The position numbers were made by a program, and so were the translations under genes. A DNA stretch of 64,000 nt, taken from assembly GCF_030056815.1 (NCBI RefSeq), contig NZ_JASHKR010000026.1:1-64000 (forward strand), given 5' to 3'. The stretch is from Rhodococcus sp. IEGM 1379. GTDB lineage: Bacteria > Actinomycetota > Actinomycetes > Mycobacteriales > Mycobacteriaceae. Below are positions 2,480 through 59,890 of the stretch, piece after piece; positions within the stretch are counted from its first letter, which is position 1; every line of letters begins with the position of its first letter. The notes beneath the pieces were generated by a model. That model was not told where the DNA came from, did no database searches, and saw only the letters and a program-made list of their open reading frames with translations.

Positions 2480-2569
2480 TCCACCGGTCCGGCGACTGAT
2501 CGTCAGGACATAAGCTCGATCCAGCTTTACCGGAGTTCAAGATTCACCGGAGTTCACCAGAGGAGAGAC

Positions 2570-2845: not shown

Positions 2846-2865
2846 CAGCCAAGCCCGGCTGAACG

Positions 2866-3957: not shown

Positions 3958-4074
3958 CTACTTCGGTCCCCTTGTGAGTCGTGCTGGATCGGACCATCGC
4001 AGCCTAGTCAGTGCTGTGCCGGGTCCTTGAAGTTGGCCCGGTCACAGAAACACGACACCTGCCCCGGAACTTGG

Positions 4075-4530: not shown

Positions 4531-4658
4531 TGCGCCAGCATATTCACAGACGCTCCACCAGCACCTACGCAGCCCGAATCCGCGATCTCGGTGCTAGCGA
4601 CGCGCCGATGGTGGACCCGAGTGGCCGTCTCTTACGACGAAGCGTCATACTTCTGTCT

Positions 4659-5273
4659 GTGACGAGCGCAGTAGGGACTTCAGGATCGGCAATCACCCAA
4701 CGCGTGCACTCGCTGAACCGGCCAAATATGGTCAGCGTTGGCACCATCGTGTGGTTGTCCAGTGAGCTCATGTTTTTCGCAGGGCTCTTCGCCATGTACT
4801 TCGTGGCACGTGCACAGGCGCCGGTAGGAAAATGGCCGCCGGAGCCGACCGAATTGAACCTGTATTTGGCTGTACCAGTGACGTTGGTGCTTATTGCATC
4901 TTCGTTCACGTGCCAAATGGGTGTCTTCGCGGCTGAGCGTGGCGATGTCTTCGGACTTCGCCGTTGGTACACCATCACCTTGATCATGGGGGCGTTCTTC
5001 GTCGCCGGTCAGGGTTACGAGTACTACCACCTCGTGCATTCCGGCACCACGATCTCGAGCAGCGTGTACGGCTCGGTGTTCTACATGACCACCGGCTTCC
5101 ACGGTATGCACGTCATCGGCGGTCTTATCGCCTTCGTTTTCTTGATCGCACGTACCCGGGTCAGCAAATTTACGCCGGCTCAGGCAACAGCAGCGATCGT
5201 TGTTTCGTATTACTGGCATTTCGTGGACATCGTGTGGATCGCGCTGTTCGCCACGATTTATTTCATCCGTTAA
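4659..5273 (+). CDS. ctaE: cytochrome c oxidase subunit III (aa3 type)
   Basis: CtaE (204 aa) is the third core subunit of the aa3 oxidase, a membrane protein without redox cofactors that stabilises proton uptake. The N-terminus matches the actinobacterial form ([20 protein letters not shown]), and [19 protein letters not shown] and [12 protein letters not shown] are typical. About five membrane helices are visible. A frame is open from 4530, but GTG 4659 gives the normal length and N-terminus. It is the first gene of the ctaE-qcrCAB block, 63 bp before qcrC. Confidence 0.96.
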
Positions 5274-7327: not shown

Positions 7328-8991
7328 CCACAACCACCACACAACCATCCAAGATTGCGGCAGCCGCAGCTGGTCAAGCAGAGGCAGTGGATTCCCGCTA
7401 CCACCTCGCAGCAGGCATGCGCCGGCAGATCAACAAGGTCTTCCCGACGCACTGGTCCTTCATGCTCGGCGAGATTGCGCTCTACAGCTTCTTGATCCTG
7501 CTGATCTCCGGTGTGTTCCTGACGCTGTTCTTCGATCCGTCGATGGCACACGTCGTTTACCAGGGCGCATACCAGCCGCTTCGCGGTGTGACCATGTCAC
7601 GCGCTTACGAGACCACTCTGAACATCTCGTTCGAGGTTCGCGGCGGTCTCTTCGTTCGCCAGATTCACCACTGGGCAGCATTGATGTTCGCTGCCTCGAT
7701 CATCGTTCACCTCGCTCGCATCTTCTTCACCGGCGCATTCCGTCGTCCGCGTGAAGCGAACTGGGTCATCGGCTGCTTGCTGCTGGTCCTGGCGATGTTC
7801 GAAGGCTTCTTCGGCTACACCATCCCCGATGACCTTCTTTCCGGTACCGGCCTCCGCGCCGCATTCGGTGGCATCACGATGAGTATTCCGGTCGTGGGCA
7901 CTTGGATGCACTGGATGATCTTCGATGGCGATTTCCCCGGCGACCTCATCATCCCGCGCCTCTACGTTGCACACGTGCTGCTGTTCCCGGGCATCATCTT
8001 GGCTTTGATCGCCGGCCACCTCGCGTTGGTCTGGTACCAGAAGCACACGCAGTTCCCCGGCCCCGGACGCACCGAAGAGAACGTCGTCGGCGTTCGCATT
8101 CTCCCGGTCTTCGCAATGAAGGGTGGCGCTTTCTTCGCCATCACCTTCGGTATTCTCGCGCTGCTAGGTGGTCTGTTCCAGATCAACCCGGTGTGGAATA
8201 TCGGTCCGTACAACCCATCTCAGGTCTCGGCTGGTTCCCAGCCCGATATCTACATGATGTGGACGGACGGCCTCGCTCGACTGTGGCCTGCGTGGGAGAT
8301 CTACCTGTTCGACCGCTACACGATCCCCGCAGTGTTTGCCGTTGCCCTCATCATGGGTCTCGTCTTCGGCCTGCTGTTCGCGTACCCGTGGATCGAGAAG
8401 CGCCTTACCGGCGACGATGCGCACCACAACATCCTGCAGCGTCCCCGCGACGTACCGGTGCGTACCGCTATCGGCGCAATGGCCATCTCGTTCTACGTCG
8501 TACTGACAATCTCGTGCATCAACGACATCATCGCGTACCACCTGCACATCTCGTTGAACGCAATGACGTGGATCGGCCGTATCGGCATGGTCATCCTTCC
8601 GCCCATCGCGTACTTCGTGACGTACCGGTTCTGCATCGGCTTGCAGCGCAGTGACCGTGCAGTCCTCGAGCACGGCATCGAGACCGGCATCATCAAGCGG
8701 ATGCCCAACGGCCAGTACATCGAAATCCACCAGCCGCTCGGACCCGTCGACGATCACGGACACCCGATCCCCCTCGAGTACCAGGGTGCAGCTGTTCCGA
8801 AGAAGATGAACAAGCTCGGCCTGGCCGGCAAGCCCGGCTCCGGTAGCTTGACCAAGGCTGACCCGGTGGAAGAGAGCGAAGCTCTCGAAGCCGCAGACCA
8901 TGCAGCCGAGCACGAGCAGCTTCAGATTCTGCTCGACTACCAGAACCGCACGCACGGCAAGACAGACGGTTCCAGTGGAGAGCTCCACTAG
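7324..8991 (+). CDS. qcrB: cytochrome bc1 complex cytochrome b subunit
   Basis: QcrB (555 aa) is the membrane cytochrome b with both b hemes and the quinol sites. Recognisable segments are [20 protein letters not shown] (heme His pair), [15 protein letters not shown] and [11 protein letters not shown]. Eight helices plus an actinobacterial C-terminal extension, ending in an acidic and His-rich tail, explain the length. Start GTG 7324 overlaps the qcrA stop. This is the protein targeted by Q203-type inhibitors in mycobacteria. A strong terminator follows at 9008. Confidence 0.97.
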
Positions 8992-9007
8992 AACTTGAGC
9001 AACAAGT

Positions 9008-9050
9008 AATGAGGCCCCGCACCGATTTCGGTGCGGGGCCTCATTGCTTT
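9008..9050 (+). terminator. rho-independent terminator after qcrB
   Basis: A 17-bp perfect stem (9008-9024 with 9029-9045) has loop ATTT and is followed by GCTTT. It lies 16 bp after the qcrB stop and closes the ctaE-qcrCAB unit. Confidence 0.92.
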
Positions 9051-9165
9051 GTCCTCATCCATCACATCTGGATTGCCCAAATGTAGACACGTCTCCCCTG
9101 GTCCTGCGCTGGGTTCCACACACCTCGCAGGAATCCCTGACTGGACACCGGAGACTCGCAGGACG

Positions 9166-9455
9166 TCAGACCGCGTCGGCGCGGGGTTCCTCGGCTCGGG
9201 CACGTGAACTCGACTCGATGACCCGGTACGCGCTCGAGTCGAGGAACGAACTGTGGTACTTGGTGTACAAGATCGCGTCTGCGTCTGTCAGATATAGGCC
9301 GAGGTTGGTTGCCAGCGACTCCGCGGCTTTCTCAGCTGATCGCGCGTTCACCCAACGGTAGAGTGGCGGGCCGCCGAGAGCCCGAGGGCCAGCGCTCCGA
9401 CAAGAACGGCAGCGCAGGTCCACAGTCGCTGTGACCGTTTCGGGAACCGAGTCAC
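9166..9455 (-). pseudogene. small membrane protein gene with apparent frameshift
   Basis: On the minus strand two overlapping frames each look half-real. From GTG 9455 one frame gives MTRFPKRSQRLWT then the hydrophobic helix CAAVLVGALALGLSA, but stops at 9348. The next frame is open down to 9166 and carries a soluble part (LYRWVNARSAEKAAESL, GLYLTDADAILYTKYHSSF), while its own upstream part is Arg/Cys-rich and unlike protein. Joining them near 9360-9375 by one base gives a protein of about 95 residues with one membrane anchor. I do not recognise the family. A tandem repeat overlaps the start. It could also be a sequencing error or two short genes. Confidence 0.45.
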
Positions 9456-9951: not shown

Positions 9952-10368
9952 CTAGTGCTTTTCTGGTCCCACGTGGTACTCGAACACGAGGCCTGCACAC
10001 GCTGCGATGATGCAGATGACTCCAACAGCGATCATCCAGGGCTGGAAGAATGCCAACGAGACGGCTGCGATGGCGGCAGCAGCAGCCAGCAGGATCGGCC
10101 AGAAGCTACCGGGGCTGAAGAAGCCCAGCTCTCCCGAACCATCCGAGATTTCAGCGTCGTCGTAGTCTTCCGGACGCGTGTCCAGTCGACGAGCGACAAA
10201 GCGGAAATAGGTTCCCACGATGAGTGTCAGTCCTGCGGACAGGACGATAGCCGTGAGTCCGGCCCATTCGATTCCCGTACGCGAGAGCGCGGTGAACACT
10301 CCATAGATGATCGCGACGAGAATGAAGAAAACCGTCAGGATCTCGAAGAGCTTGGCTTCGATCTTCAT
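9952..10368 (-). CDS. ctaF: cytochrome c oxidase subunit IV (actinobacterial CtaF)
   Basis: CtaF (138 aa) is the small actinobacterial fourth subunit of the aa3 oxidase. Four membrane helices are visible: residues about 8-28, 33-55, 88-105 and 108-130, with a short acidic loop ([20 protein letters not shown]) between pairs, of which [10 protein letters not shown] is the conserved part. It lies 39 bp downstream of ctaC on the same strand and is surely co-transcribed. Confidence 0.95.
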
Positions 10369-10407
10369 ATCAGCACTTGTCCTTGTTCAGTGAAGAGGCT
10401 GGCCGGC

Positions 10408-11466
10408 TCAGTTGCCTGCAGTAGCGACGGTTGCCTGACGGTACTCGCGGTCGGTGTTGAACGGCGTGGTCGACGTTGCCACCGGCGACTGACCGATTGC
10501 CGACAATGCCTCAGCTGTGGTCAGACCGCCGTTGCCCTCGGCGTCACCCTTACGCAGTTCGATGTACTTGGCGAAGTCTGCCGGCGATACCGCACGGACC
10601 TCGAAGTTCATCATTGCGTGGAAGGTGCCACACATTTCGGCACAGCGCCCGACAAATGCGCCTTCCTTCTCGATCTCACTGATCTGGAAGATGTTGTCGG
10701 AGTGGTTCTGCTTCGGGTTCGGCATAACGTCACGCTTGAACAGGAACTCGGGAACCCAGAACGCGTGAATCACGTCGGAGGATGCAAGTTCGAACTGAAT
10801 ACGCTTGCCGGTCGGCAGAACCAGGATCGGGATTTCGGAACTGGATCCGACGGTCTCGATCTTGTCGTAATGCAGGTAACTCAGATCCTGCACGCTGTTG
10901 CCGTGGATGGGTCCGGGAACCTCTTCGCCGTGAGCGTTCACGGTCGAGCCCTCAGCCTTGGATGCTTCCTCGGCCTCGGCATCGATGCCGTTGTACTTGG
11001 CAGTTCCGTCGCCCAGCTCGATTGAGCGGTAGCCGAACTTCCAGTTCCACTGGAATGCCGTGACGTCGACAACGACGTCAGGGTTTTCCGTCCTCTCCAG
11101 AACCTTGTTCTGGACGATGACGGTGAAGTAGAAGAGAACCGCGATGATCACGAAGGGAACTGCCGTGTAACCGAGTTCGAGGGGCACGTTGTATGCCGTC
11201 TGACGCGGGAACTCAGGCGAGTCCTTCTTCTTACGGTGGAAGATGACGGCCCAGAAGACCAATCCCCACACCAGAACACCCATGACGAGGGCGGCAACTA
11301 CCGACCACGTCCACAGCTCTCGCATGCTCTTCGCCTCAGGAGTAATGCCCGAGGGCCACCCGAAACGGAGCACTTCATTGTCGATGGAGCAACCCGACAG
11401 CAGCAAGGCAGCAATGCCCAAAGTTACTGCCAGCCCCGCTCGCCGAAGGATCCGACCTTGCGCCAC
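10408..11466 (-). CDS. ctaC: cytochrome c oxidase subunit II
   Basis: CtaC (352 aa) holds the CuA centre that receives electrons from QcrC. The CuA ligands are in [15 protein letters not shown] lipoprotein signal (LLLSGCS) is followed by two membrane helices and the outer cupredoxin domain, which carries an actinobacterial insertion rich in acidic residues (AEEASKAEG). The frame is open to 11598. GTG 11466 is chosen because AGGAAGG lies eight bases upstream, while GTG 11472 would be too close to it. It forms a two-gene unit with ctaF, apart from ctaE. Confidence 0.96.
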
Positions 11467-11793
11467 GTTCACGCCTTCCTGATCGCCACAAAATTCAACT
11501 AGGGCACCTCGAAGGGAAGGCCCAATTACTACGCAGCGTAGACCAAAGGTGGGCGGTATCCATCCCCGGGTCCTCGGCCGTGTCGCGTCGGACGTCACAC
11601 AAATCTCTCAGGCGCAGCTCAGGAACTGGTCAGCCGCCGCAAGCGACCTACATCACTGCAATTCGATCGGTCACGATCGGCACAGCCTCGGATCTGCGGC
11701 ATACTTTCGGGAAGAGTTCGTTGACCTCTCCCTGACGCGTGTTGTCCGGGAGCCTTCTGCATTAAAAAATTCTGAATCGAGGAACCGGACACT
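11467..11793. promoter_or_regulatory. divergent ctaC / asnB promoter region
   Basis: A 327-bp gap between divergent genes has no coding sequence I can support. It contains a near-perfect small palindrome CTACGCAGCGTAG at 11529-11541, close to ctaC, and an A-rich stretch just before asnB. These may be operator and promoter parts. No regulator can be named. Confidence 0.4.
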
Positions 11794-13719
11794 GTGTGTG
11801 GACTGCTCGGGCTACTGACATCTGGCGGAACCAGCGACGACGCCGTCGCTCAGGTCGACCAGGCGATGCACTGCCTGCGTCACCGTGGACCCGACGAACA
11901 TGGGACATGGCATGACGACCACCTCGTCTTCGGTTTCAATCGCCTGTCGATCATCGACATCGAACACTCTCATCAGCCGTTGCGGTGGGGCCCGCCGGAG
12001 AACCCCGAGCGTTATGCGCTGACATTCAACGGCGAGATCTACAACTACCTGGAGATCCGGGCCGAGCTGGCGAAGGAACATGACGCGAAGTTCTTCACCG
12101 AGGGCGACTCCGAGGCCATCGTCGCGGCGTTCCACTACTGGGGCGAAGACGCGGTACGACGCCTACGCGGAATGTTCGCGTTCGCAGTCTGGGATACCGA
12201 CACCCGTGAGTTGTTCATTGCTCGTGACCCCTTCGGCATCAAGCCGTTGTTCATCGCGACAGGCGCCGGCGGCACTGCTTTCGGCAGCGAGAAGAAGAGC
12301 CTCCTCGAGCTGACGGACTTGATCGGAATCGGCACCGAACTGGATCCGCGTGCGATCGAGCACTACACGGTCCTGCAGTACGTTCCGGAACCGGAGACGC
12401 TCCACAAGGAGATCCGCCGTCTCGAATCCGGCTGTTTCGCGCGGGTCCGTCCCGGCGAGAAGCCGCAGATCACGCGGTACTTCACGCCCAAGTTCCCGGC
12501 CACGCCGTTCGCTCCGGGTACGGAGAAGGCGCGATACAAAGAGATTGCCGACGCCCTCGAAGACTCCGTCGCCAAGCACATGCGCGCCGACGTCACCGTC
12601 GGTTCGTTCCTGTCCGGCGGTATCGACTCCACGGCTATTGCCGCGCTGGCAATCCGCCACAATCCCAACCTCATCACCTTCACGACGGGTTTCGAGCGCG
12701 ACGGTTACTCCGAGGTCGACGTTGCAGCCGAGTCGGCCGAGGCCATCGGCGCCCGGCATGTGGTCAAGGTGGTCTCCCCCGCCGAGTTTGCCGCCGCCAT
12801 CCCCGAGATCGTCTGGTACCTCGACGATCCGGTCGCAGATCCGGCATTGATCCCGCTGTGGTTCATCGCGAAGGAAGCACGCAAGCACGTCAAGGTCGTG
12901 TTGTCCGGCGAGGGTGCCGACGAACTGTTCGGCGGTTACACGATCTATCGTGAACCGTTGTCCCTCAAGCCTTTCGAGTACCTGCCGCAGGGATTACGTC
13001 GAGCCGCCGGGAAGCTGTCCGAGCGCATCCCCGACGGCACTCGCGGCAAGAGCCTGCTCAACCGCGGATCCTTGACGCTGGAAGAGCGGTACTACGGCAA
13101 CGCTCGCAGCTTCAACGACGCCCAACTGCGTGCCGTTCTACGCGATTTCCGCCCCGAGTGGACACATCAGGACGTGACAGCACCGATCTACGCTCAGTCA
13201 CGCGATTGGGATCCGGTAGCGCGTATGCAGCACCTGGACCTGTTCACGTGGCTGCGCGGAGACATCCTCGTCAAGGCTGACAAGGTCACGATGGCCAACT
13301 CACTGGAACTTCGAGTGCCCTTCCTGGACAAGGAAGTCTTCGACGTTGCGTCCCGCGTGCCCCTGGATCAGAAGATCACGAAAGACACGACCAAGTACGC
13401 GCTACGTCAGGCGCTCGAAGGCATTGTCCCGCATCATGTTCTGCATCGGGCCAAGCTCGGTTTCCCGGTTCCGCTTCGCCACTGGCTGCGCGGAACGGAA
13501 CTCTTCGACTGGGCGCACCTGCAGATCGAAGAATCGGGCACCGACCACATCTTCGACAAGGCCGCTGTCGCGAAGATGCTCAATGACCACCGCGCCGGCG
13601 TCTCCGATCACAGTCGCCGGTTGTGGACGGTGCTGACCTTCATGGTCTGGCACGGAATTTTCGTGGAGAAGCGCATTGTTCCGCAGATCCAGGAACCGGT
13701 GTATCCGGTCAACATCTAG
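11794..13719 (+). CDS. asnB: asparagine synthase, glutamine-hydrolysing
   Basis: AsnB (641 aa) makes asparagine from aspartate, ATP and glutamine. Start GTG 11794 puts Cys at position 2 (MCGLLG), the catalytic nucleophile of the N-terminal Ntn glutaminase domain. LRHRGPDEHG and FNGEIYNYLEIR are conserved in that domain. The synthetase domain has the PP-loop SGGIDSTAIAAL and SGEGADELFGGY. Length is normal for the actinobacterial form (Rv2201). A GAGGAAC ribosome site precedes the start. Confidence 0.96.
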   Translation: MCGLLGLLTSGGTSDDAVAQVDQAMHCLRHRGPDEHGTWHDDHLVFGFNRLSIIDIEHSHQPLRWGPPENPERYALTFNGEIYNYLEIRAELAKEHDAKFFTEGDSEAIVAAFHYWGEDAVRRLRGMFAFAVWDTDTRELFIARDPFGIKPLFIATGAGGTAFGSEKKSLLELTDLIGIGTELDPRAIEHYTVLQYVPEPETLHKEIRRLESGCFARVRPGEKPQITRYFTPKFPATPFAPGTEKARYKEIADALEDSVAKHMRADVTVGSFLSGGIDSTAIAALAIRHNPNLITFTTGFERDGYSEVDVAAESAEAIGARHVVKVVSPAEFAAAIPEIVWYLDDPVADPALIPLWFIAKEARKHVKVVLSGEGADELFGGYTIYREPLSLKPFEYLPQGLRRAAGKLSERIPDGTRGKSLLNRGSLTLEERYYGNARSFNDAQLRAVLRDFRPEWTHQDVTAPIYAQSRDWDPVARMQHLDLFTWLRGDILVKADKVTMANSLELRVPFLDKEVFDVASRVPLDQKITKDTTKYALRQALEGIVPHHVLHRAKLGFPVPLRHWLRGTELFDWAHLQIEESGTDHIFDKAAVAKMLNDHRAGVSDHSRRLWTVLTFMVWHGIFVEKRIVPQIQEPVYPVNI

Positions 13720-50412: not shown

Positions 50413-51522
50413 TCAGTCCAGCGCGTCGAACCGTGGAATCAGGTACTCGGACACCCATTTTGCCTCTTCGATGAGTGGCCAACCCGCGAGAATCAGTGCT
50501 GTGAGACCGGTGCGTGCACGAAGAGTGCGCACCGAATCGGTGATCGAGTCCGGATCGCCGACGTAGTAGACCGCTGACGAACCGGTTCCGAAGATGTCGA
50601 GAGGTGACCACGCCGTGATTCCGGCGTAGAGACCGTCACCGACGTACAGATCTTCGGGTTCCGGCAGCTTCCCGGCTGCGATGGAGTCGACCCAACCCTG
50701 ACGCTGCGCGTCGCGAGCTGTGAACGTCTTCAGATCATGCTCCCCGTGAGTGCGTCGACGCACCGCATTGTCGAGAACATGTGTGATCTGGTCGATTCCG
50801 GTCTTCTCGAACAGCGACCGGAACCGCTCGAGCGCTTGCGCCTTCGTGGGCCGAACGATGACACCGGTGAGCGCACCGAAGTCCGTGAATTCTCGTCCCG
50901 CGTTTTCGGCAGCACCTCGCGCTGCAGTGAACTTGTCCTCGATGAAGGACGTCTCGCGGAGCATCGCAAGATATGTATCCAGCACCTTGCCTGAATTGGC
51001 CAGTCCGGCGGGCGAATCACCGGTTCCCCACAGCGGAACCTGGTGACCGGCCGGGGCATCGATCCGCAGCGGTGTGTTCGGGAAATTCGATTCGGTGCCC
51101 TCGGCGTAAATGCGGCGGAAGTCAGCCCAGTACTGCTCCCCCAATTCGTATCGCCGATCGTGCTCGACGTTCATGTCGTACTTCGTGAGGATGTTCTCGC
51201 GTCCGTTGACTGAGTTGATCATCAAGCGTCCGCCACTGAAAGCGTCGAAAGTGAGCGCCTTTTCAGCAAGCAAACGTGCCGGCGTCATGTTCGCGTAGAC
51301 AGCGACCAGGAACTTCATTCGAGTTGTATGCGCAGCGGCCCAGGTCGCCGAGATGAAGGGGTCGTTCGGCCACGTGGCAACCAGGGCACCTTCGAATCCG
51401 CCGTCGTCGATCGTTTTCGCCAACTCGATTTGCCTCGCACCGTCCACCGGGTAGAGGCCATCCGGAGTCCACGGGTAGTCGCCGTCGGCTTGCGTGAGGT
51501 ACCAAAAAGTCTTGACACTCAT
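50413..51522 (-). CDS. LLM class flavin-dependent monooxygenase (SsuD-like)
   Basis: A 369-residue TIM-barrel flavoprotein of the alkanesulfonate/dimethylsulfide monooxygenase group. It opens MSVKTFWYLTQADGDYPW, and GGRLMINSVNGRE, the EGTESNFPNTPLRI region and VPLWGTGDSPAG fit the group. FMNH2 would come from a separate reductase, which is not seen nearby. The start overlaps the thiM stop (ATGA). In a unit with thiM and a sulfurtransferase, an organosulfur or thiazole substrate is plausible (inference). Confidence 0.9.
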   Translation of the reverse strand: MSVKTFWYLTQADGDYPWTPDGLYPVDGARQIELAKTIDDGGFEGALVATWPNDPFISATWAAAHTTRMKFLVAVYANMTPARLLAEKALTFDAFSGGRLMINSVNGRENILTKYDMNVEHDRRYELGEQYWADFRRIYAEGTESNFPNTPLRIDAPAGHQVPLWGTGDSPAGLANSGKVLDTYLAMLRETSFIEDKFTAARGAAENAGREFTDFGALTGVIVRPTKAQALERFRSLFEKTGIDQITHVLDNAVRRRTHGEHDLKTFTARDAQRQGWVDSIAAGKLPEPEDLYVGDGLYAGITAWSPLDIFGTGSSAVYYVGDPDSITDSVRTLRARTGLTALILAGWPLIEEAKWVSEYLIPRFDALD

Positions 51523-52367
51523 CAGTTTTGCGCTCCAGTCGGCAATTCGAAAGATTCGACGCGTGCAAGCGTCCGGATGGTATCGGCGTCGACGGTATAG
51601 AGAGCGTCGAGGTAGGCGACGGCAAACGAACCCGGACCGGTCGAGTTCTTCTCGGCGATTTCGGATGCGACCGCGACGTGGGCGTGCGCAGCAACGAGGC
51701 CTTCGAGTGCCGTTGGTGTCACTGCCAGATAAGCGGCGACGAGCCCACCCAATGAGCAACCCGTGCTCGTCACGCGAGGAAGAAGCGCGCTACCACCTGA
51801 CACACGCACGCCACTCACTACACCTTCGCTGTCGCGACCCACGATGTAATCGACAGGCCCCGAAGCGGATACGGCGTCGGAATGGTTCAACAGGGAAATT
51901 GCCGCAGGAACAGCATCGATGGAATCCGATGCGCTGTCGACTCCACGCGTATCACCGCCGAGACCTGCGAGCGCGATGATCTCCGACGCATTGCCTCGAA
52001 TTGCGGTTGGGCGGAATCGAAGCAGGTCCACGGCAATGTCACTGCGCCAAGGTAATCCGCCGACTCCGACCGGGTCGAGAACCCAGGGAGTGTCGGCCTT
52101 CTGCGCAGCCTCCGCAGCTACTCGGAATGCAGCGGCAGTCGCGTCGTCGGGGGTTCCGAGATTCACCAGCACTCCCCCAGCGATGGCTGCAAAACCTGCG
52201 GCTTCGTGCACGTTGTCGATATGCGCGTTGCTCGCGCCGGCGGCAAGCAGGACGTTGGTAAGGAAATTGGCCGAGACGATGTTGGTGAGCGATTGGACAA
52301 GCGGCACCTGCTCACGCAATGCGTCGAGAGAAGTGGCAACGGAATCAGCAGTAATAATGTGGGACAT
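51522..52367 (-). CDS. thiM: hydroxyethylthiazole kinase
   Basis: ThiM (281 aa) phosphorylates the thiazole moiety of thiamine for salvage. The substrate-site region VQSLTNIVSANFLTNVLLAA, WVLDPVGVGGLPWRS and the GNASEIIALAG motif are typical; the C-terminal VTSTGCSLGGLVAAY carries the catalytic Cys. Met 52367 is the start. I see no TPP riboswitch upstream. Linked to a monooxygenase and a sulfurtransferase, not to thiE or thiD. Confidence 0.93.
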   Translation of the reverse strand: MSHIITADSVATSLDALREQVPLVQSLTNIVSANFLTNVLLAAGASNAHIDNVHEAAGFAAIAGGVLVNLGTPDDATAAAFRVAAEAAQKADTPWVLDPVGVGGLPWRSDIAVDLLRFRPTAIRGNASEIIALAGLGGDTRGVDSASDSIDAVPAAISLLNHSDAVSASGPVDYIVGRDSEGVVSGVRVSGGSALLPRVTSTGCSLGGLVAAYLAVTPTALEGLVAAHAHVAVASEIAEKNSTGPGSFAVAYLDALYTVDADTIRTLARVESFELPTGAQN

Positions 52368-52408
52368 GAGTTTTCCTTCAGGCAATAAGTCTGTACAGGG
52401 CCGGTCAA

Positions 52409-53335
52409 TCACGACCCGTGACATCGATCGCCTTCGCCGGGTGCATTTCCGGTAACCATCGGCAATGCCGGATCGGCAGTCCATTCCTCGAGGGAACCGT
52501 CGTAGATCTTGACGTCGCCGTACCCACTCATCACCAGACCGAGCGCGGTAAGGCACGCGGAAACACCTCCACCGCAGTAGATTACGACGGGTTTTGGGTG
52601 CCCACGCAGGACCGATCCGGCACGTGTGGAGACCTCCGTAATCGGGAGCATCAGCCCCTCGTCGTCAAGTAGGCTTTTCGCCGAGAGGTTCAAACTCGCC
52701 GGAATATGACCACGGCGTGAGTATCTCGTCTTTTCAGTGCCCGCATACTGCTCGGGCGACAGGGCGCATACGAGTGTTCCCGGCCGGGATCCGGTTGACA
52801 CAGCCGCTACCAGATTTTGATCAACCCACAGGCCGAGGTCCGAAGCAGCCCAACGTGATTCGGCAAATCCAGACGCAGCTTCCGGACCGGTACCAACCGG
52901 CAAGCCGATCCGGGTCCACTCGGCGAGACCTCCGTCAAGAACTCGCGCATAGATGCCCGCGTTGCGGAGCACCCACCAGAATCGTGAGGCCCACGTCATC
53001 GATCCCTGGTCGTAGATCACTATCGACGCACCAGGTTCGACTCCGAGTGCCGCGAGGTCGTCCGACAACTGATCAGCGCAAGGTCGCGTGAAGTGCAACG
53101 ATGCGGCGCGATCGGAGAACGTCGTCATCAGGTCGACGTGACGGGAACCCGGGATATGACCCTCGACCCAACCCGCGTATCCCGATTCCGGTCGATAGTC
53201 GCCGTCGAACCGCGCCGGCGGAAAATGCACGCTCACGTCGAGCACAACCACGTCATCCGCGGTCACAAGCGCTTCGAGCGCCACCGCGTCGATCAACGGC
53301 GTGTCGATCAACGGCGTGTCCAATTCCCTCGTCAC
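52409..53335 (-). CDS. thiosulfate/3-mercaptopyruvate sulfurtransferase (rhodanese)
   Basis: A 308-residue tandem rhodanese. The first domain has GHIPGSRHVDL and the second holds the active-site Cys in VVIYCGGGVSACLTALGL, with RRGHIPASLNL before it. The N-terminus repeats IDTPLIDTPLID because of a 15-bp tandem duplication (GATCAACGGCGTGTC twice on the plus strand). GTG 53335 has AAGGAAGG upstream. It is the first gene of the unit with thiM and the monooxygenase. Confidence 0.93.
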   Translation of the reverse strand: MTRELDTPLIDTPLIDAVALEALVTADDVVVLDVSVHFPPARFDGDYRPESGYAGWVEGHIPGSRHVDLMTTFSDRAASLHFTRPCADQLSDDLAALGVEPGASIVIYDQGSMTWASRFWWVLRNAGIYARVLDGGLAEWTRIGLPVGTGPEAASGFAESRWAASDLGLWVDQNLVAAVSTGSRPGTLVCALSPEQYAGTEKTRYSRRGHIPASLNLSAKSLLDDEGLMLPITEVSTRAGSVLRGHPKPVVIYCGGGVSACLTALGLVMSGYGDVKIYDGSLEEWTADPALPMVTGNAPGEGDRCHGS

Positions 53336-53374
53336 GAAGCACCTTCCTTTCGAAATCGACACCGACGAACCTAA

Positions 53375-53404
53375 GTGAGTACTAGCGTATACGCAAGTAC
53401 TCAC
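53375..53404. promoter_or_regulatory. nested palindromic operator
   Basis: GTGAGTACT (53375-53383) is mirrored by AGTACTCAC (53396-53404), and the perfect palindrome GCGTATACGC (53385-53394) lies between. It sits midway between the sulfurtransferase and GntR genes. It is most likely the binding site of the adjacent GntR protein, controlling both directions. Confidence 0.7.
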
Positions 53405-53459: not shown

Positions 53460-54146
53460 ATGAGCGCCGAGGAAACTGCAAGCACCACACACCTGCTGGT
53501 GCCGGAGACAGCGCTGGGCCGCTCGGACCAAACCTCGCGGCAGTACCTCCGACTGCGTGCAGACATCTTGGACGGCAAATTCACGCAGGGCACCCCTCTA
53601 CACGAAACACAGCTGTGCGAATCGTATGGAGCCTCGCGTACACCCATTCGCGAAGCACTGAATTGGCTTGCACACGACGGACTTCTCGAGCGGGCCGCGC
53701 GTGGATTCCGCGTCCGCTCCGGAACGCCCGAAGACGTCATCGAAATCTACGCGGCGCGAGTCGCCTTGGAATCAGAAGCCGCCGGCGCAGCTGCACTGCG
53801 GCACAGCGACCTGGATCTCGCACGGCTGGAACAGCTCCATACCTTCTGTTGCACGGCAATTGAAGGAACGGAAGTCAGATCAGGGAACTTCAAGTTCCAC
53901 GAGGCCCTCTGGCAGGCCGCCCACAATTCCACGATCATGTCGCTGCTCATCCGCCTGACCACACAACTTCGGATCTACGACAGCGGACCACCTTCGAACT
54001 ACGGCGAACCTGACCTGCTCAACGCCGAGCATCAACAAATCCTAGATGCCATTCGCGCCCGCAACGAACGGACCGCGCGCGAATGCATGCGCACGCACCT
54101 CGAACGCAGCCGCGACCAGAGGATCAAGATGTTCGCAAGCCACTAA
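53460..54146 (+). CDS. GntR family regulator (FCD domain)
   Basis: A 228-residue regulator. The winged helix has YLRLRADILDGKF and LCESYGASRTPIREALNWLA. The C-terminal FCD ligand domain shows EIYAARVALESEAAGAAAL and FHEALWQAAHN, with the Asp/His residues that often bind a metal. FadR-subfamily FCD regulators sense small carboxylic acids. Divergent from the sulfurtransferase unit across a clear palindrome. Start ATG 53460, with AAGAAGGAACGGGG upstream. Confidence 0.93.
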   Translation: MSAEETASTTHLLVPETALGRSDQTSRQYLRLRADILDGKFTQGTPLHETQLCESYGASRTPIREALNWLAHDGLLERAARGFRVRSGTPEDVIEIYAARVALESEAAGAAALRHSDLDLARLEQLHTFCCTAIEGTEVRSGNFKFHEALWQAAHNSTIMSLLIRLTTQLRIYDSGPPSNYGEPDLLNAEHQQILDAIRARNERTARECMRTHLERSRDQRIKMFASH

Positions 54147-54200: not shown

Positions 54201-54239
54201 ATGTCACCCGCATCACAAAGCAGGGTATCCAACCCTAAC

Positions 54240-54258
54240 TAAACCTATGCTAGCCTAA
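54240..54258. promoter_or_regulatory. candidate DtxR/IdeR iron box
   Basis: The reverse complement reads TTAGGCTAGCATAGGTTTA, which matches 14 of 19 positions of the IdeR consensus TWAGGTWAGSCTWACCTWA. It lies 66 bases upstream of the ABC binding protein start. This predicts repression by iron. Confidence 0.65.
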
Positions 54259-54323
54259 GAAAATTGAGAAATTCATTTCACTTTTCGGTAACCGTCACCG
54301 TGACAAGACTTTTCGGAGAACTC

Positions 54324-55487
54324 ATGCGTCCGCTGCAGAACCCGTCCACTGTGGGAGGCGCCATGACGCGCCGCCAACTGATTCGATCGATGGGGGTAGC
54401 CGCCGCCGCACTCGGAGCTTTCGGGATCACGGCTTGCTCTAGTCGCACGCCCGTTGACGAAGCCTCGACAACCGAGAGCGCATCGGGTCCGTTCACCGTC
54501 GTGGACCAGTATCAGAACACTATTACGTTCGACACCCCCGTCGGGCGTATCGCCTCGGCGATCATTCCTGTCCCCTCCATGATCGCCGGTTCCGACCAGT
54601 CGATCTCACGCAATGTCGGCGTCAACTCCAGTGCTATTTCCCTCGCCAAAAACGGCATGCTTGCCACGATGTTCCCGGAATTCCTCAACACCCCAGTAGT
54701 TTCCGGCCCCGACTTCGTTCCGAACGTCGAACAAATCCTCTCCCTCAACCCGGATGTCGTGATCCAGTGGGGCGACAAGGGTGACGACATCGTTGCGCCA
54801 CTCCGCAACGCCGGATTGAAGGTCATTCTCCTCAAGTACGGAACTCAGGAGGATCTCGAAGCATGGATCAACATCTTCGGCGATCTGCTCGACAAGAAGC
54901 CGGAAGCGCGGGAAATACTCAACCGCATGGCTGCCGATCGAAAGACTGTCGAGTCCATCGCCGTCGCAAATGCCGCCAAGGCCCCACGCGCGATGTACTT
55001 CTACAGCACACCCGAGACTAAAGTCTCCGCTGACAACACCTACATGGACTTCTGGATCACTCTCGCCGGCGGTAAGAACGTCGCCCGCGGTGCCGGAAAG
55101 GGCACCAGCGTCGCGGTCACCAAAGAGCAGATTCTGACCTGGGATCCCGAGGTCCTGGTTCTCGGAAACTTCGACGCTGCCACCCCGCAGGACATCTACG
55201 ACAACCCCAACTGGGCATCACTGAGTGCGGTGAAGAACAAGCGCGTCTACAAAGCACCGATCGGCGGGTTCTCCTGGGATCCCCCCTGCAACGAATCCAA
55301 CCTGATGTGGCTGTGGGTGGCCGAAATCTTTTACCCCGAAGCACAACTCGACCTCGATCTGCGCAACCGTATTCGCGAAACGTACCAGTCACTGTATGCC
55401 TACGATGTCACGGACGCCGAGATCGACCGCATCCTGCATCTCGAGTCCAACAAGGTAAGCACAGGCTATGACTCGTTCAGCGCTTGA
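54324..55487 (+). CDS. iron-complex type ABC transporter substrate-binding protein
   Basis: A 387-residue lipoprotein. The signal has a twin-Arg feature (TRRQLIRSMG) and lipobox GITACS. The mature part is a class III (Peripla_BP_2) binding protein: FTVVDQYQNTITFDTPVGR, ILSLNPDVVIQWG and GGFSWDPPCNESNLMWLW. Start could be ATG 54324 or ATG 54363, each with a ribosome site. It overlaps the permease gene by 20 bp. Substrate could be a siderophore, corrinoid or other metal complex; the iron box favours iron. Confidence 0.92.
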   Translation: MRPLQNPSTVGGAMTRRQLIRSMGVAAAALGAFGITACSSRTPVDEASTTESASGPFTVVDQYQNTITFDTPVGRIASAIIPVPSMIAGSDQSISRNVGVNSSAISLAKNGMLATMFPEFLNTPVVSGPDFVPNVEQILSLNPDVVIQWGDKGDDIVAPLRNAGLKVILLKYGTQEDLEAWINIFGDLLDKKPEAREILNRMAADRKTVESIAVANAAKAPRAMYFYSTPETKVSADNTYMDFWITLAGGKNVARGAGKGTSVAVTKEQILTWDPEVLVLGNFDAATPQDIYDNPNWASLSAVKNKRVYKAPIGGFSWDPPCNESNLMWLWVAEIFYPEAQLDLDLRNRIRETYQSLYAYDVTDAEIDRILHLESNKVSTGYDSFSA

Positions 55488-56556
55488 GAGTGCAACCCTT
55501 GGTGGTGAAGCAACTGCCGCAGACGCCGGGAAACCCTCCCGGTACAAGGTTTTCACTGTTCCACTGATCCTGACCTTCGGCATCCTCGTGATCGGCTTGG
55601 CAGCCCTGGCCATCGGCCGATACACCATTCCGGTCAACGAAGTCGCCCGCATCCTCATCGATCGAGTGATTCCATTGGAACAGACCTGGACCGAGGTCGA
55701 GTCGCAAGTTGTTCTCGGCGTTCGCCTCCCACGACTGCTTCTAGGCATGCTGGTCGGCGGCGGACTGGCACTGGGCGGTTCGGCGTTGCAAGCAGTGTTC
55801 CGGAATCCGTTGGTAAGCCCACAGGTCCTCGGAGTCTCCTCCGGAGCGTCGTTCGGTGGCGTCCTCGTCCTCATGCTCGGCCTCGGATCGGCATTCCTCG
55901 TCGGCGGAGCGTTTATATTCGGTATCGCTGCGCTGGTGATGGTCACCGCCATCGGCAAAACCCGCACGGGCAGTTCCATTCTCATGATCGTGCTCGGCGG
56001 CGTGGTTACCAGTGCGTTCTTCTCCGCGCTCGTCTCGCTGATCACCTACCTCGCCGATCCGTACAGCACACTGCCGTCAATTGTCTTCTGGCTCATGGGT
56101 TCCCTGGCAACCGCCGATATGGGCAAAGTTGCGATCGCCGCAGTTCCGATCCTGCTCGGCAGCGCCGTGATTCTCGGACTCCGCTGGCGTGTGAACATTC
56201 TCTCGCTCGGCGACGACGATGCCGCATCGCTGGGCATCAAGCCTCACCGTCTACGCATGGTGCTTCTGGTCATGGTCGCATTCATGACGGCCGGCGCCGT
56301 TGCCGTATCCGGTGTCATCGGTTGGGTCGGTTTGGTCGTTCCACACCTAGCCAGGCTGTGGGTTGGTCCCGATCATCGGATCTCGATGCCGACGACGTTT
56401 GTTCTCGGCGCGGCGTACCTGACTGTAATCGACACTCTTTCGCGCACGATCAGCCCCGGCGAGATTCCCCTGGGAATCCTCACGGCAATCATCGGCGCTC
56501 CGGTATTCGTCGTTCTCCTTCGCAAGTCGAGCAGACAGGCGTTCATCAATGCTTGA
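55468..56556 (+). CDS. FecCD family ABC transporter permease
   Basis: A 362-residue permease with about ten membrane helices. VRLPRLLLGMLVGGGLALGG, NPLVSPQVLGVSSGASFGG and SGVIGWVGLVVPHLARLWVG are the classical FecCD/BtuC signatures. It overlaps the binding protein gene and the ATPase gene (8 bp), so the three are made together. A single permease suggests a homodimer. Confidence 0.95.
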   Translation: MTRSALESATLGGEATAADAGKPSRYKVFTVPLILTFGILVIGLAALAIGRYTIPVNEVARILIDRVIPLEQTWTEVESQVVLGVRLPRLLLGMLVGGGLALGGSALQAVFRNPLVSPQVLGVSSGASFGGVLVLMLGLGSAFLVGGAFIFGIAALVMVTAIGKTRTGSSILMIVLGGVVTSAFFSALVSLITYLADPYSTLPSIVFWLMGSLATADMGKVAIAAVPILLGSAVILGLRWRVNILSLGDDDAASLGIKPHRLRMVLLVMVAFMTAGAVAVSGVIGWVGLVVPHLARLWVGPDHRISMPTTFVLGAAYLTVIDTLSRTISPGEIPLGILTAIIGAPVFVVLLRKSSRQAFINA

Positions 56557-57340
56557 GCTAGTGGATCTCGGCTTTCGGTATCCCGGGCGGGACTGGGTAT
56601 TCCGACACACCAACCTCGCCATCGCGTCGGGCTCGATCACCTCGATTCTCGGCCCCAACGGCAAGGGCAAAACCACCCTGTTGCGGTGCATCGCGGGTCT
56701 CACCACCCCCGAAGAAGGTCGGGTCATCAGAGATCCGAACATCGGCTACGTCCCGCAGGCAACAACGTCGAATTTTGCGTACTCGGTGTTCGACATGGTG
56801 CTGATGGGCCGGGCAAAGAAAGTCTCGACATTCGGAACCCCCGGCAAAGCCGATGTCGCACGAACTCGGAGTGTTCTCGAACGAGTGGGTATCGACCATC
56901 TTGCGTCGTCGAATTTCACCGAACTATCCGGCGGACAAAGACAATTGGTCCTCGTCGCCCGCGCACTGAACACAGACTGCACGTTCATGATTCTCGACGA
57001 ACCAGTCTCCGCACTCGACCTGCGAAACCAAGCGCACGTCCTCCAACTTCTGCGCGAACTCGCTGCAGAAGGCATGGGAATCCTGCTGACCACGCATCAC
57101 CCCGATCACGCGCTGCACCTCGGCGGAGACGCAGTCGTCATGTACAGCCCCGAGGAGATTGTGGTCGGCGGCGTGGAAACCCTCGTGACGAGCGAAACCC
57201 TCTCCCGCCTCTACGGTATCGACGTCGCAACCGAAACCGTCCTCGATCGCGGTAGTCCGCGCACCGTGGTCTACACCCGCTATGACAATTTCGCGGTGGC
57301 CGACAACGACCTCCGTCTCAAAGAAAGCTCGCTCTTATGA
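56549..57340 (+). CDS. iron-complex ABC transporter ATP-binding protein
   Basis: A 263-residue ATPase. Walker A is GPNGKGKTTLL (Lys for the more usual Ser at one position), Q-loop region is YVPQATT, signature LSGGQRQLVLVARAL, Walker B FMILDEPVSALDL, and H-loop LLTTHHPDHAL. It closes the transporter and overlaps the next gene by four bases (ATGA), tying GATL1 to the transporter. Confidence 0.95.
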   Translation: MLELVDLGFRYPGRDWVFRHTNLAIASGSITSILGPNGKGKTTLLRCIAGLTTPEEGRVIRDPNIGYVPQATTSNFAYSVFDMVLMGRAKKVSTFGTPGKADVARTRSVLERVGIDHLASSNFTELSGGQRQLVLVARALNTDCTFMILDEPVSALDLRNQAHVLQLLRELAAEGMGILLTTHHPDHALHLGGDAVVMYSPEEIVVGGVETLVTSETLSRLYGIDVATETVLDRGSPRTVVYTRYDNFAVADNDLRLKESSLL

Positions 57341-57978
57341 CCGCCGAAAGTGGTACAGCCACAAAAACAATCGCCCGAGTTCTGCACTTGGTAATGGGTT
57401 CCAACACCGGCATGTCCGGTAACACCTCCAATACCGCACTCGTGCGTAATGTCGATCTCTACGAACTCGATACGATCGATCTGAGCGCCGTTTCGGGACT
57501 CATCATCAACGGAAACTGCGATCAGATCTACCTGGAGCGCAACCGAGACGTTCTCACCGACTTCGTCACTGCCGGTGGTCGTATCGCCGTGATGGGCCAT
57601 CCCCTCACAGACTTCCTTCCCAACCTTGGACAATGGCGCAAACTCCAGTACTCAGGCCCCAAGGATCTTGCCATCTCAGCCGGCAGCCCCCACCCCGTGT
57701 GGGCAGGCGTCGATCCCGCTGATCTCAGTTTCCGCAAGGAAGTGTCGGGATTCTACGGGCGCGGCTACAGCCAGAAGTTGCCGGACAACGCCATCGTTAC
57801 CAATTACATTGGTCGTCATGGCCTTCCGGTCGACTACGTCTACCCGCTGGGTGCCGGCGAGATACTGGTTCACGGCGGAATCGATCTCGCGGTGTTCCAG
57901 GCTGATCCCAACACGTCCTCGCGTGTCTTTCCGCAACTCCTGAACTGGCTCGGCCAGCTCGACCGAACGGATATCTGA
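57337..57978 (+). CDS. GATL1: unrecognised protein, amidotransferase/ThuA-like look
   Basis: A 213-residue cytoplasmic protein. The core alternates strands and helices: VSGLIINGNCDQIYLERN, FVTAGGRIAVMGHPLTDFLP, VWAGVDPADLSFRKEVSGFY, GLPVDYVYPLGAGEILVHGG, ending in FPQLLNWLGQL. The GGRIAVMGH turn and the later GEILVHGG strand resemble class I glutamine amidotransferase-like or ThuA folds, but I see no clear Cys-His-Glu triad. It overlaps the ATPase and GATL2 genes. A shortened paralogue lies at 58723. The name GATL1 is only a label for this report. Function is unknown; the iron-box transporter context suggests handling of a metal complex. Confidence 0.82.
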   Translation: MTAESGTATKTIARVLHLVMGSNTGMSGNTSNTALVRNVDLYELDTIDLSAVSGLIINGNCDQIYLERNRDVLTDFVTAGGRIAVMGHPLTDFLPNLGQWRKLQYSGPKDLAISAGSPHPVWAGVDPADLSFRKEVSGFYGRGYSQKLPDNAIVTNYIGRHGLPVDYVYPLGAGEILVHGGIDLAVFQADPNTSSRVFPQLLNWLGQLDRTDI

Positions 57979-58652
57979 TGTCTACCCTCGAAGCCTTCAA
58001 CCGCACGGATCGCGCTCCCCTCTCCACGCGCAACCTTGCGATCGTGCACGGTGGATCGCACTTCCACTTGCAGACCGTCAAAGATCCGGCCGTCGTCGCA
58101 CACCAGCCGGACTTCCACTATCTCGTTGACCTGCAGCCCGGTGACCTCGACGGCGTCACGACGCTTATTCTCGCGGATCGTCTACATCCGGAACTGCTCC
58201 GCAAGCATGCTGCCGAATTCCTCGCTGTCGCCGAACGCGGCGGAACCCTGGTGGTTCTGGGTGAGAATGCCGCACACACATGGCTTCCCGGTGTGACCTG
58301 GAGCCCGCGCCCGACCAACTTCTGGTGGTGGCGAACCGGCGAAGATCCGATGATTCGCACGCGCAGTCACGATCACGAATCGTGGAACTACCTGACCACG
58401 AAGTCTGTAATCTGGCACCACCACGGCCTGCTCCATACCGATGCAGACGTTGTCCCACTTCTGGTCTCGGAGGAACCCGACTCAGATGGAAACTCTCATG
58501 ACGCCGGAATGATGCTCTTCGAGGACACCACGTCGACCGCGGGTCGCATCATCGCCACCACCTTGGATCCGACGTACCATCACGGCAACAACTTCATGCC
58601 GGGTTCGACCCGTTTCCTCTACGCTCTCCTACGTTGGGTCGACCACACATAG
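57978..58652 (+). CDS. GATL2: unrecognised His-rich partner protein
   Basis: A 224-residue protein with a similar strand-helix plan: NLAIVHGGSHFHLQTV, VTTLILADRLHPELL, AERGGTLVVLGENAAHTWLP, TNFWWWRTGEDPM, VIWHHHGLLH, and RIIATTLDPTYHHGNNFMP near the end. Histidines are unusually frequent (HFH, HDHE, HHH, HH), so metal or heme contact is possible. There is no signal peptide. It starts within the GATL1 stop (TGATG), the last gene of the five-gene unit. A C-terminal paralogue fragment lies at 59706. Confidence 0.82.
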   Translation: MSTLEAFNRTDRAPLSTRNLAIVHGGSHFHLQTVKDPAVVAHQPDFHYLVDLQPGDLDGVTTLILADRLHPELLRKHAAEFLAVAERGGTLVVLGENAAHTWLPGVTWSPRPTNFWWWRTGEDPMIRTRSHDHESWNYLTTKSVIWHHHGLLHTDADVVPLLVSEEPDSDGNSHDAGMMLFEDTTSTAGRIIATTLDPTYHHGNNFMPGSTRFLYALLRWVDHT

Positions 58653-58722: not shown

Positions 58723-59157
58723 TCAGCGCTGGGCAAGCCAGTCGAATAGCTGTGGCGACATACGTGAGGCCGAATTGTCATCACTGTGCCAACCGGTTAG
58801 ATCGTTGCCCGAATGCACCAGAACATAGCCCTCTCCGAGAGGGTGGACGTAGTCGAGCGGCACTCGCGAACGACCGATGTGAGTGGTGACCACGTGACCC
58901 ATCACCGCGATACGCCCACCCGCCCGAACAAATGCGGTGAGTTCTTCCCCCGTGCGCTCGAGGAAGATCTGATCACAATCGGAAGTGACAACAAGCCCGG
59001 CAACCGACGACAGATCAAGATCGTCGAACTCGTACAGGTTGAGATAGGACACACGGGAGTCGATCGGATGTGCAGAACCCTTGCGCATCAACAGATTCAC
59101 GATGTCAGACGCGACCGCGATGTTAGATGTCAGACGCGACCGCGCTGGGCACAACAT
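58723..59157 (-). pseudogene. GATL1 paralogue with internal deletion
   Basis: This minus-strand frame aligns with GATL1 over both ends: LYEFDDLDLSSVAGLVV, CDQIFLERTGEELTAFV and AGGRIAVMGH, then THIGRSRVPLDYVHPLGEG and RMSPQLFDWLAQ. About 60 residues between VMGH and the IGR segment of GATL1 are missing, with the frame kept. The N-terminus is also altered: the frame runs into a 19-bp repeat at the FmdE-like gene end, and the true start is unclear. It may be a nonfunctional remnant or a trimmed variant. Confidence 0.75.
59101..59144. repeat. 19-bp direct repeat at gene junction
   Basis: GATGTCAGACGCGACCGCG occurs at 59101-59119 and again at 59126-59144. It duplicates the 3' end of the FmdE-like gene (AVASDI) into the start of the deleted GATL1 paralogue. 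Confidence 0.95.
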
Positions 59158-59653
59158 CGTAGATCTGATCTGCGGGGGCCGCCATGACCCGTTCAGTCAT
59201 TTCGAGCTTGAGGACCTTCAAGCGCCCTAAGTCCGCGGCCGATTTCTCGGCCTTACCCACGAGCGCAATGAACTCGTCTACTACAAACCCAGCGTCACGG
59301 ATAATCAGAGTGATGCTCTTGCCACGATAATCGATCTGAAAGACGTAAATTGCCAATGTGGTTCCGCGTTCAGGACGAGCCAGCGCCGGGTCGACGGTGT
59401 AGCGCCCCTCGGTGACACTGCGGGTGACCAACTCGAAAGTATCGCGCACCCCCGGACCACCGTGAGATGTGGTGACTACAAGCTCACGACGTTCGACGGG
59501 TCCGTCGGTCCCCAGGACCTCGAGCGCGCGCTCGATCACCTTGTACGCGTGGGCAACTCCGCCGGGGGCCTGTGGTCCGTGGTAACGGAGGCTGTCTTCG
59601 AAGGTGAAGTCGAGGGTTGTTCCCTGATCGATCACGGTGAGTGTGTTGGTCAT
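59123..59653 (-). CDS. FmdE-like protein
   Basis: A 176-residue protein. LRYHGPQAPGGVAHAYKVIE resembles the FmdE motif usually read as HGHxCPG, and TSHGGPGVRDTFELVTRS resembles the CGVDAIQ segment; TLAIYVFQIDYRGKSITLII then matches the barrel strand. The cysteines normally present in both motifs are replaced (by Ala and Gly/Pro). FmdE-type genes are often near metal-complex ABC transporters, as I recall. Its neighbours on the same strand are a GATL2 remnant upstream and a deleted GATL1 downstream. It may instead belong to an unnamed actinobacterial family. Confidence 0.6.
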   Translation of the reverse strand: MTNTLTVIDQGTTLDFTFEDSLRYHGPQAPGGVAHAYKVIERALEVLGTDGPVERRELVVTTSHGGPGVRDTFELVTRSVTEGRYTVDPALARPERGTTLAIYVFQIDYRGKSITLIIRDAGFVVDEFIALVGKAEKSAADLGRLKVLKLEMTERVMAAPADQIYDVVPSAVASDI

Positions 59654-59705
59654 GATGAGATCCTTATCGAATTACGTGGTGAACTGTTTTTCGTAAACTA
59701 TGAAA

Positions 59706-59849
59706 TCAATGGCATAGGCCATTGAGGAATCGTTCGGTTGCCGGCATGAAATATGCTCCGAAGTGCGACATCGGGTCCAATGTTGCCACTACCACTGTGC
59801 CCTGTGTGCTCACCTTGTCGACGTAGGCCAGTACGTCACCGTTCGGCAA
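59706..59849 (-). pseudogene. C-terminal remnant of a GATL2 paralogue
   Basis: A 47-codon minus-strand frame from TTG 59849 reads GTVVVATLDPMSHFGAYFMP and then ATERFLNGLCH. This aligns with the end of GATL2 (RIIATTLDPTYHHGNNFMP, STRFLYALLRW), with about 14 identities over 40 residues. The rest of the gene is missing. It lies directly after the second iron-box-like site. Confidence 0.7.
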
Positions 59850-59871
59850 ACTGAATATTACCTTAGCTAAG

Positions 59872-59890
59872 TAAGGCTAGCTTAACTAGA
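59872..59890. promoter_or_regulatory. second candidate iron box
   Basis: TAAGGCTAGCTTAACTAGA matches about 14 of 19 IdeR consensus positions; TTAGCTAAGTAAGG just before extends the AT-rich palindromic look. It lies upstream of the minus-strand GATL2 remnant and FmdE-like gene. Confidence 0.5.

Follow-up and report, generated by a model that had tools for sequence, protein, structure and literature searches.

What do two proteins without a family name do directly behind the genes of a metal-chelate-type importer? The question was raised by a locus in the 64,000-nucleotide (nt) stretch of Rhodococcus sp. IEGM 1379 analyzed here (contig NZ_JASHKR010000026.1, positions 1 to 64,000; the window), in which five plus-strand genes spanning positions 54324 to 58652 encode a substrate-binding protein (SBP), a permease, an ATP-binding cassette (ABC) ATPase, and two proteins here called GATL1 and GATL2 (G1 and G2). 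The first-pass annotation had described these genes as following each other without gaps and with an overlap at every junction, and the coordinates and Pfam matches bore this out (Table 1). That inventory stood for the five genes but had overlooked an FmdE-like partner on the minus strand, as well as a second, decayed module copy. The SBP, permease, and ATPase matched the families of Fec/BtuCD-type metal-chelate importers (Peripla_BP_2, FecCD, and ABC_tran in Pfam), from which the operon differs by adding two coupled proteins that are also common to unrelated importer families. The closest solved chain to the window SBP was 4ovk (E = 1.2e-53), and its relatives included HI_1472 and a nickel/iron-binding periplasmic protein (4ino). 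The SBP and permease were far below the BtuF and BtuC cutoffs, as they were for all NCBIfam models shown, and corrinoid uptake was rejected, with no positive sign of it found and no search aimed at cobalamin genes made. The answer favored here, tentatively and at somewhat less than even confidence, is that a cytosolic GATL1:GATL2 heterodimer, together with an FmdE-fold protein, would process a compound delivered by the neighboring importer.

Neither GATL protein was assigned to a characterized family, in keeping with their description as unrecognized in the first-pass annotation. GATL1 matched no Pfam family, the Pfam matches of GATL2 were all below cutoff (best E = 0.012), and neither protein reached an NCBIfam cutoff. 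Single Pfam scans of 20 G2 and 21 G1 relatives returned only weak matches (best E = 0.012 and 0.0064, respectively), among them DUF4350 in 5 of the G2 members (best E = 0.019) and 1 of the G1 members (E = 0.0064), and the ThuA profile was not matched in these scans at E values up to 1. Profile searches of the PDB with three alignments (A1, A2, and A3) gave best E values of only 0.69, 0.57, and 2.4; MAFFT did not align the fused protein correctly (A4), and that alignment was left out of folding. GATL1 and GATL2 were homologous to each other (hhalign profile E = 3.2e-16), and the amidotransferase/ThuA-like look reported for them was upheld by a structure match to the class I amidotransferase-like fold, obtained with a predicted model of GATL2 alone.

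GATL2 shares this predicted fold with the class I glutamine amidotransferase-like superfamily, including ThuA-like proteins, whereas the pair differs from that superfamily in having no family match at cutoff, only 8 to 17% identity to structures, and no conserved cysteine. It also differs in its own GATL2 motifs (WHxHG and D(P/R)xxHxG) and in consisting of two unequal paralogs. Cysteine occurred in at most 4 of 20 rows of any A2 column, and 19 of 66 G2 domains were free of it; one GATL1 column held cysteine in 14 of 21 rows, in an xCDQ stretch lying outside the GHxxT stretch that we infer to be the GATL1 nucleophile turn. The many histidines of GATL2 were confirmed on the translation (18 in 224 residues), and across 20 relatives H147 and H149 never varied, while H70 and H201 almost never did. 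Of 63 domains, 58 contained the GATL1 motif GF[FY]xRG. Inspection by eye, without a prediction, revealed no signal peptide on either protein. Ordinary glutamine amidotransferases were rejected because the conserved cysteine is absent, and chance open reading frames (ORFs) were rejected because of conservation and paralogy. The missing cysteine, with conserved residues from which a ligand pocket could be built, would also suit a ligand sensor controlling importer expression. Such a role was judged very improbable, however: no Pfam DNA-binding or signaling domain was matched in the GATL1 and GATL2 members scanned, and GntR or LysR regulators already lie beside several clusters.

GATL2 was distributed sporadically. 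It was detected in 22 of 151 genomes of the window's family and 3 of 396 of its phylum, and, in groups of genomes centered on one genome each, in 3 of 301 (center, a Dehalococcoidia genome), 20 of 246 (Paenibacillus), 5 of 289 (an alphaproteobacterium), and 3 of 246 (Lachnospiraceae); these counts include the center genomes and, with part of the candidates unscored, are lower bounds. GATL2 loci were also found in a species collection (24 loci) and in plasmids (30 records), including those of haloarchaea and Aliivibrio. The pair was found in Actinomycetota, Pseudomonadota, Bacillota, Chloroflexota, and haloarchaea. Sixty loci were surveyed (L024 to L047, L099 to L116, L118, and L119 to L135), which are not independent of each other (L123 and L135 are from one species) and of which two were frame-broken and used as pieces (L042 and L038). 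G1 adjoined G2 in 59 of them, and the remaining locus (L102) had two G2-like domains in one frame. Both GATL domains lay in one open frame in 14 of the 60 loci, in several lineages. A divergent clade of fused proteins was observed in rhizobia, Shinella, and Aliivibrio (L122 at 3879 to 5228, L125, L128 at 3009 to 4412, L130, and L132), in which WHxHG was absent from four of five members; within the divergent rhizobial/Aliivibrio clade, the assignment of domains to G1 or G2 is uncertain. In the Paenibacillus order, an ATPase, an FtsX-like permease, and an unnamed protein were encoded beside GATL1 and GATL2 (L104, 12590 to 15099; L105, 8366 to 10842), and the pair was present three times in L104.

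Of the 60 loci, 58 had importer genes within the flanks retrieved (all except L101 and L113), a raw count of nonindependent loci without a random-gene baseline. Conservation beside transporters, on which the first-pass annotation had let its case depend, was thus found. No importer ATPase was in view at L044 and L102, and the Fec genes of L114 lay approximately 5 kb away. All 15 further regions from the window's family carried Fec or Opp importers, with 2 of the 15 repeating earlier loci; L138 and L151 lie on contigs equal in length to those of L030 and L033, respectively. Importer labels, assigned by hand from phmmer matches, fell into four unrelated ABC classes (Fec, Opp/Nik, Ssu/Tau, and Fbp), and the pair was therefore not specific to iron-box Fec-type operons, a point on which the first-pass annotation is corrected. 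Among the Opp/Nik SBPs, two were nearest the NikA model and a third was nearest Opp4A with NikA second, all far below the cutoffs. The Ssu/Tau type was recognized by similarity (L043), family scan (L109), or annotation (L120), and the Fbp type occurred in haloarchaea (SBP_bac_8/6 and BPD_transp_1, with a weak phnS2 match).

Importer labels on a G2 tree were clustered yet exchanged. Nine changes among five labels (Fec, Opp, Ssu, Fbp, and none) were counted, compared to a minimum of 4 and a shuffled mean of 25.6, and seven changes were counted without the three unlabeled loci; the tree was of a quick kind, with long branches at L102 (twice), L100, L119, L121, L047, and L125. The clearest single case was Rhodococcus phenolicus (L030), where GATL2 was 79% identical to that of the window and the importer was of the Opp/Nik type. 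On the tree this locus fell among the Fec-type Rhodococcus loci, in a group with L024 and L025 (SH-aLRT, 97), and its SBP5-OppBCDF-FmdE genes were convergent to GATL1-GATL2, a layout also found in L137 and L139 to L141. Because of the four importer classes and this exchange, the pair probably follows the substrate and not the transporter. For the same reasons, the idea that GATL1 and GATL2 are subunits dedicated to a single type of transporter was rejected. A related explanation, that they are accessory subunits binding the ABC ATPase and regulating or gating transport, draws on the frame overlap that joins the pair to the ATPase gene of the window and on their frequent placement right after ATPase genes. 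Since the same pair accompanies ATPases of four unrelated families and forms a separate convergent unit in the five regions just named, a dedicated transporter subunit is hardly possible, and the accessory role was considered very improbable.

The third member of the module was an FmdE-like protein, whose predicted model contained the FmdE core fold. Its gene accompanied the GATL pair in 29 of the 59 loci that had been selected without regard to FmdE (L118, found via an FmdE profile, was left out) and in 12 of the 15 further regions. As judged by E value, PF02663 was matched by 5 of 16 FmdE-like members (best E = 7.1e-4). The window member differs from the FmdE family in having no PF02663 match at E values up to 10 and in carrying YHGP at the position of the Cys/His motif that we take to belong to the FmdE metal site. 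YHG was invariant, and no cysteine was found among the invariant columns. In the window, the FmdE-like gene is the intact part of the decayed second module copy (58723 to 59855, minus strand), which otherwise holds a shortened GATL1-like gene and a C-terminal remnant of GATL2. Full-length counterparts of this copy were retained in Rhodococcus sp. ARC_M6 (L024; GATL1-like counterpart at 8746 to 9348), where the counterpart region also held a fused GATL1-GATL2 gene and Opp-type importer genes.

Upstream of the operon, an IdeR-like box had been proposed. Scored against what we take to be the iron-box consensus (TWAGGTWAGSCTWACCTWA), the element was weak in the window itself (14/19), a score reached at a frequency of 0.013 by the best match of 270 nt of shuffled upstream DNA, and conserved in related promoters. 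The best site scored 14 to 17 of 19 in 11 of 11 Corynebacteriales promoters (L024 to L029 and L031 to L035; that of L034 lay elsewhere, at −11), and the element formed a conserved block in a promoter alignment of the window and 10 relatives, for which reasons the window box gains weight. Five other actinobacterial promoters scored 15 (L037 and L041), 14 (L036), 13 (L040), and 10 (L039). Genome wide, four sites matched the consensus with at most two mismatches, compared to none for a reversed control; one each preceded a Peripla_BP_2 gene, a DUF2470 gene, and an MFS gene, and no Pfam match was found in the three ORFs scanned at the fourth. Judged from these promoter sequences, iron control of the operon family is likely, and the window importer is probably under such control. 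The highest iron-box score in the window was found elsewhere (15/19 at 59867 to 59885, 232 nt upstream of the FmdE-like gene), and 10 other upstream stretches, of nine FmdE-like genes and one fused GATL gene, scored just 9 to 11 of 19.

Neighboring genes were examined for hints of the cargo, and several of them suited a different explanation, in which the module scavenges an organosulfur or organophosphorus nutrient without any metal role and GATL1, GATL2, and the FmdE-like protein are pathway enzymes acting before C-S or C-P cleavage. The divergent group encoding an SsuD-like LLM monooxygenase, ThiM, and a rhodanese (window positions 50413 to 53404) was kept in 7 of 7 Fec-type Rhodococcus and Prescottella loci (L024 to L029 and L035), and its LLM and ThiM genes were also present at the Opp-type L030. 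An LLM gene overlapped G2 in L044, another occurred in L101, and ssuD with an FMN reductase gene occurred in L123. Genes phnG to phnJ, with two further ATPases, lay behind the FmdE-like gene and a Fec importer on plasmids of Labrenzia (L124/L136) and Martelella (L131), and phnG to phnJ also neighbored FmdE-like and Fec genes on an A. vitis plasmid (L129). PhnG of L124 was above the Pfam cutoff (E = 1.3e-33), the protein named PhnJ in the L131 record had no NCBIfam match at 1e-10, and no phnM was annotated in the C-P lyase stretches examined. In the Lachnospiraceae search, nitrogenase-like genes were found with Fec-type genes near GATL1 and GATL2 (L047 at 1579 to 4828, with NifH and two Oxidored_nitro genes; a similar three in L114 at 10009 to 13179). 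According to excerpts of a report on Rhodobacter capsulatus, an enzyme of this class together with an Ssu importer allows isethionate use (PMC11423573). The isethionate locus described there (isrBHDK/ssuCAB) has in common with the loci studied here nitrogenase-like genes, an ABC importer, and a gene of the LLM type that is annotated ntaA; three conserved hypothetical proteins are listed behind ssuCAB (PMC11423573). These three may or may not correspond to GATL1, GATL2, and the FmdE-like protein.

Nutrient scavenging without a metal leaves other observations unexplained, namely, the iron-box-like promoters, TonB receptors at five loci (L120, L121, L123, L127, and L135) with HemP at two of these (L123 and L135), and a HupE/UreJ_2 gene between the importer and the GATL pair inside the L119 operon. 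PepSY proteins were encoded at L123, L127, and L135. One TonB receptor reached a siderophore cutoff (L123) and one a heme cutoff (L120), and two were nearest heme-receptor models, below cutoff (L121 and L127). The Gordonia loci (L031 to L034), moreover, yielded no LLM or ThiM genes, and these were present in just 1 of 5 Opp-type regions (L137 to L141, some partial), that one being the L030 species again. Excerpts of the actinobacterial literature on organic sulfur sources mention no iron-type operon of the GATL kind, by which a pure sulfur role is mildly disfavored. Overall, this explanation was regarded as a serious possibility, if on balance an improbable one.

Table 1. Features in and around the importer operon of the window
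Feature	Position	Strand	Remarks
LLM flavin monooxygenase, alkanesulfonate-monooxygenase-like	50413..51519	-	TIGR03565, 1.8e-35, below cutoff
Hydroxyethylthiazole kinase-like (ThiM)	51522..52442	-	NF006830 above cutoff (237 vs 180 bits)
Rhodanese-type sulfurtransferase	52409..53404	-	Divergent group; NF008557, 4.5e-31, below cutoff
GntR/FCD regulator	53460..54146	+	Directly upstream of operon; PF07729, 1.4e-26; PF00392, 5e-15
IdeR/DtxR-like candidate element	54220..54258	+	Two degenerate near-matches 20 nt apart: 13/19 at 54220, 14/19 at 54240
SBP	54324..55487	+	Fec-type; Tat/lipobox-like N terminus; Peripla_BP_2, 8.5e-22 (Pfam); alternative starts 54264, 54363
Permease	55468..56556	+	FecCD PF01032, 4e-85 (Pfam); 20-nt overlap with SBP
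ABC ATPase	56549..57340	+	ABC_tran PF00005, 6e-26 (Pfam); 8-nt overlap with permease
GATL1 (G1)	57337..57978	+	GATase1-like paralog, GF[FY]xRG; 4-nt overlap with ATPase
GATL2 (G2)	57978..58652	+	GATase1-like, WHxHG and D(P/R)xxHxG; 1-nt overlap with GATL1
Second GATL1-like gene	58723..59157	-	Inner stretch missing; tblastn in two pieces, 47.6% and 52.7% identity
FmdE-fold protein	59123..59653	-	Third module member
GATL2 C-terminal remnant	59709..59855	-	Profile match, E = 8.2e-15, positions 149-201 of 209

Processing of an imported compound by GATL1, GATL2, and the FmdE-fold protein was weighed against these observations. TonB/HemP, HupE/UreJ, LLM monooxygenase, C-P lyase, and nitrogenase-like neighbors each match part of it, and sulfur-only and metal-only explanations each leave some neighbors unexplained. 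The metal-complex setting first proposed was kept in part: the iron-box-like promoters agree with it, whereas the LLM, C-P lyase, and nitrogenase-like neighbors point partly to organosulfur or organophosphorus chemistry. Several points weigh against the favored explanation. The LLM, rhodanese, Ssu/Tau importer, C-P lyase, and nitrogenase-like genes fit metal-free scavenging of sulfur or phosphorus, TonB receptors were present at just 5 of 60 loci, and the importer count lacks the baseline noted above. The window box, besides being weak alone, is outside the genome's four best sites. PTN(F/Y)WWW, which all of the first 20 sequences share, was kept in just 40 of 66, and the conserved Trp, His, and Asn residues may bind an aromatic ligand instead of a metal.

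For the processing of an imported compound, we infer the following course. GATL1 and GATL2 would be the two halves of a cytosolic heterodimer, fused in some lineages, with an amidotransferase-like fold without the amidotransferase cysteine, and with the FmdE-fold protein they would act on cargo from the adjacent ABC importer. Since the window importer is of the Fec type and probably iron controlled, this cargo would most likely be a metal chelate or a metal-binding organosulfur or organophosphorus compound; metal handling by GATL1 and GATL2 is possible. Across from the GFYxRG of GATL1, the WHxHG and D(P/R)xxHxG residues of GATL2 would bind the complex and then release or rearrange it, with the conserved His, Trp, and Asn residues holding the imported compound while the metal is freed or the ligand is made ready for breakdown. 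The organic part might then be degraded by lineage-specific enzymes, such as the LLM monooxygenase, C-P lyase, or nitrogenase-like reductase. A bolder form of this proposal is rather unlikely: that a new two-subunit amidotransferase-fold enzyme, in which a His/Trp/Asn site across the heterodimer replaces the cysteine, would dismantle, with its FmdE-fold partner, a new class of imported compound (a metal complex with an organophosphorus or organosulfur ligand), and that this enzyme would be common to at least four unrelated importer families in bacteria and archaea.

The importers and folds are known. Within the literature listings and abstract beginnings consulted, no description was met of the GATL pair, of its combination with an FmdE-fold protein, or of its occurrence beside four importer families, and these sources contained nothing on GATL1/2 or on an FmdE-like protein with such importers. 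A nameless pair beside four importer families, from Rhodococcus to haloarchaea, points to one substrate or substrate class imported in different ways. Naming this substrate would annotate importers that now carry general labels (iron, nickel/peptide, and sulfonate) and would assign a function to FmdE-fold proteins found outside methanogens; the reactions known for the amidotransferase fold may be extended as well. Because importers are exchanged around the same pair, the question is testable, as deletion mutants of a Fec-type and an Opp-type species should share a phenotype.

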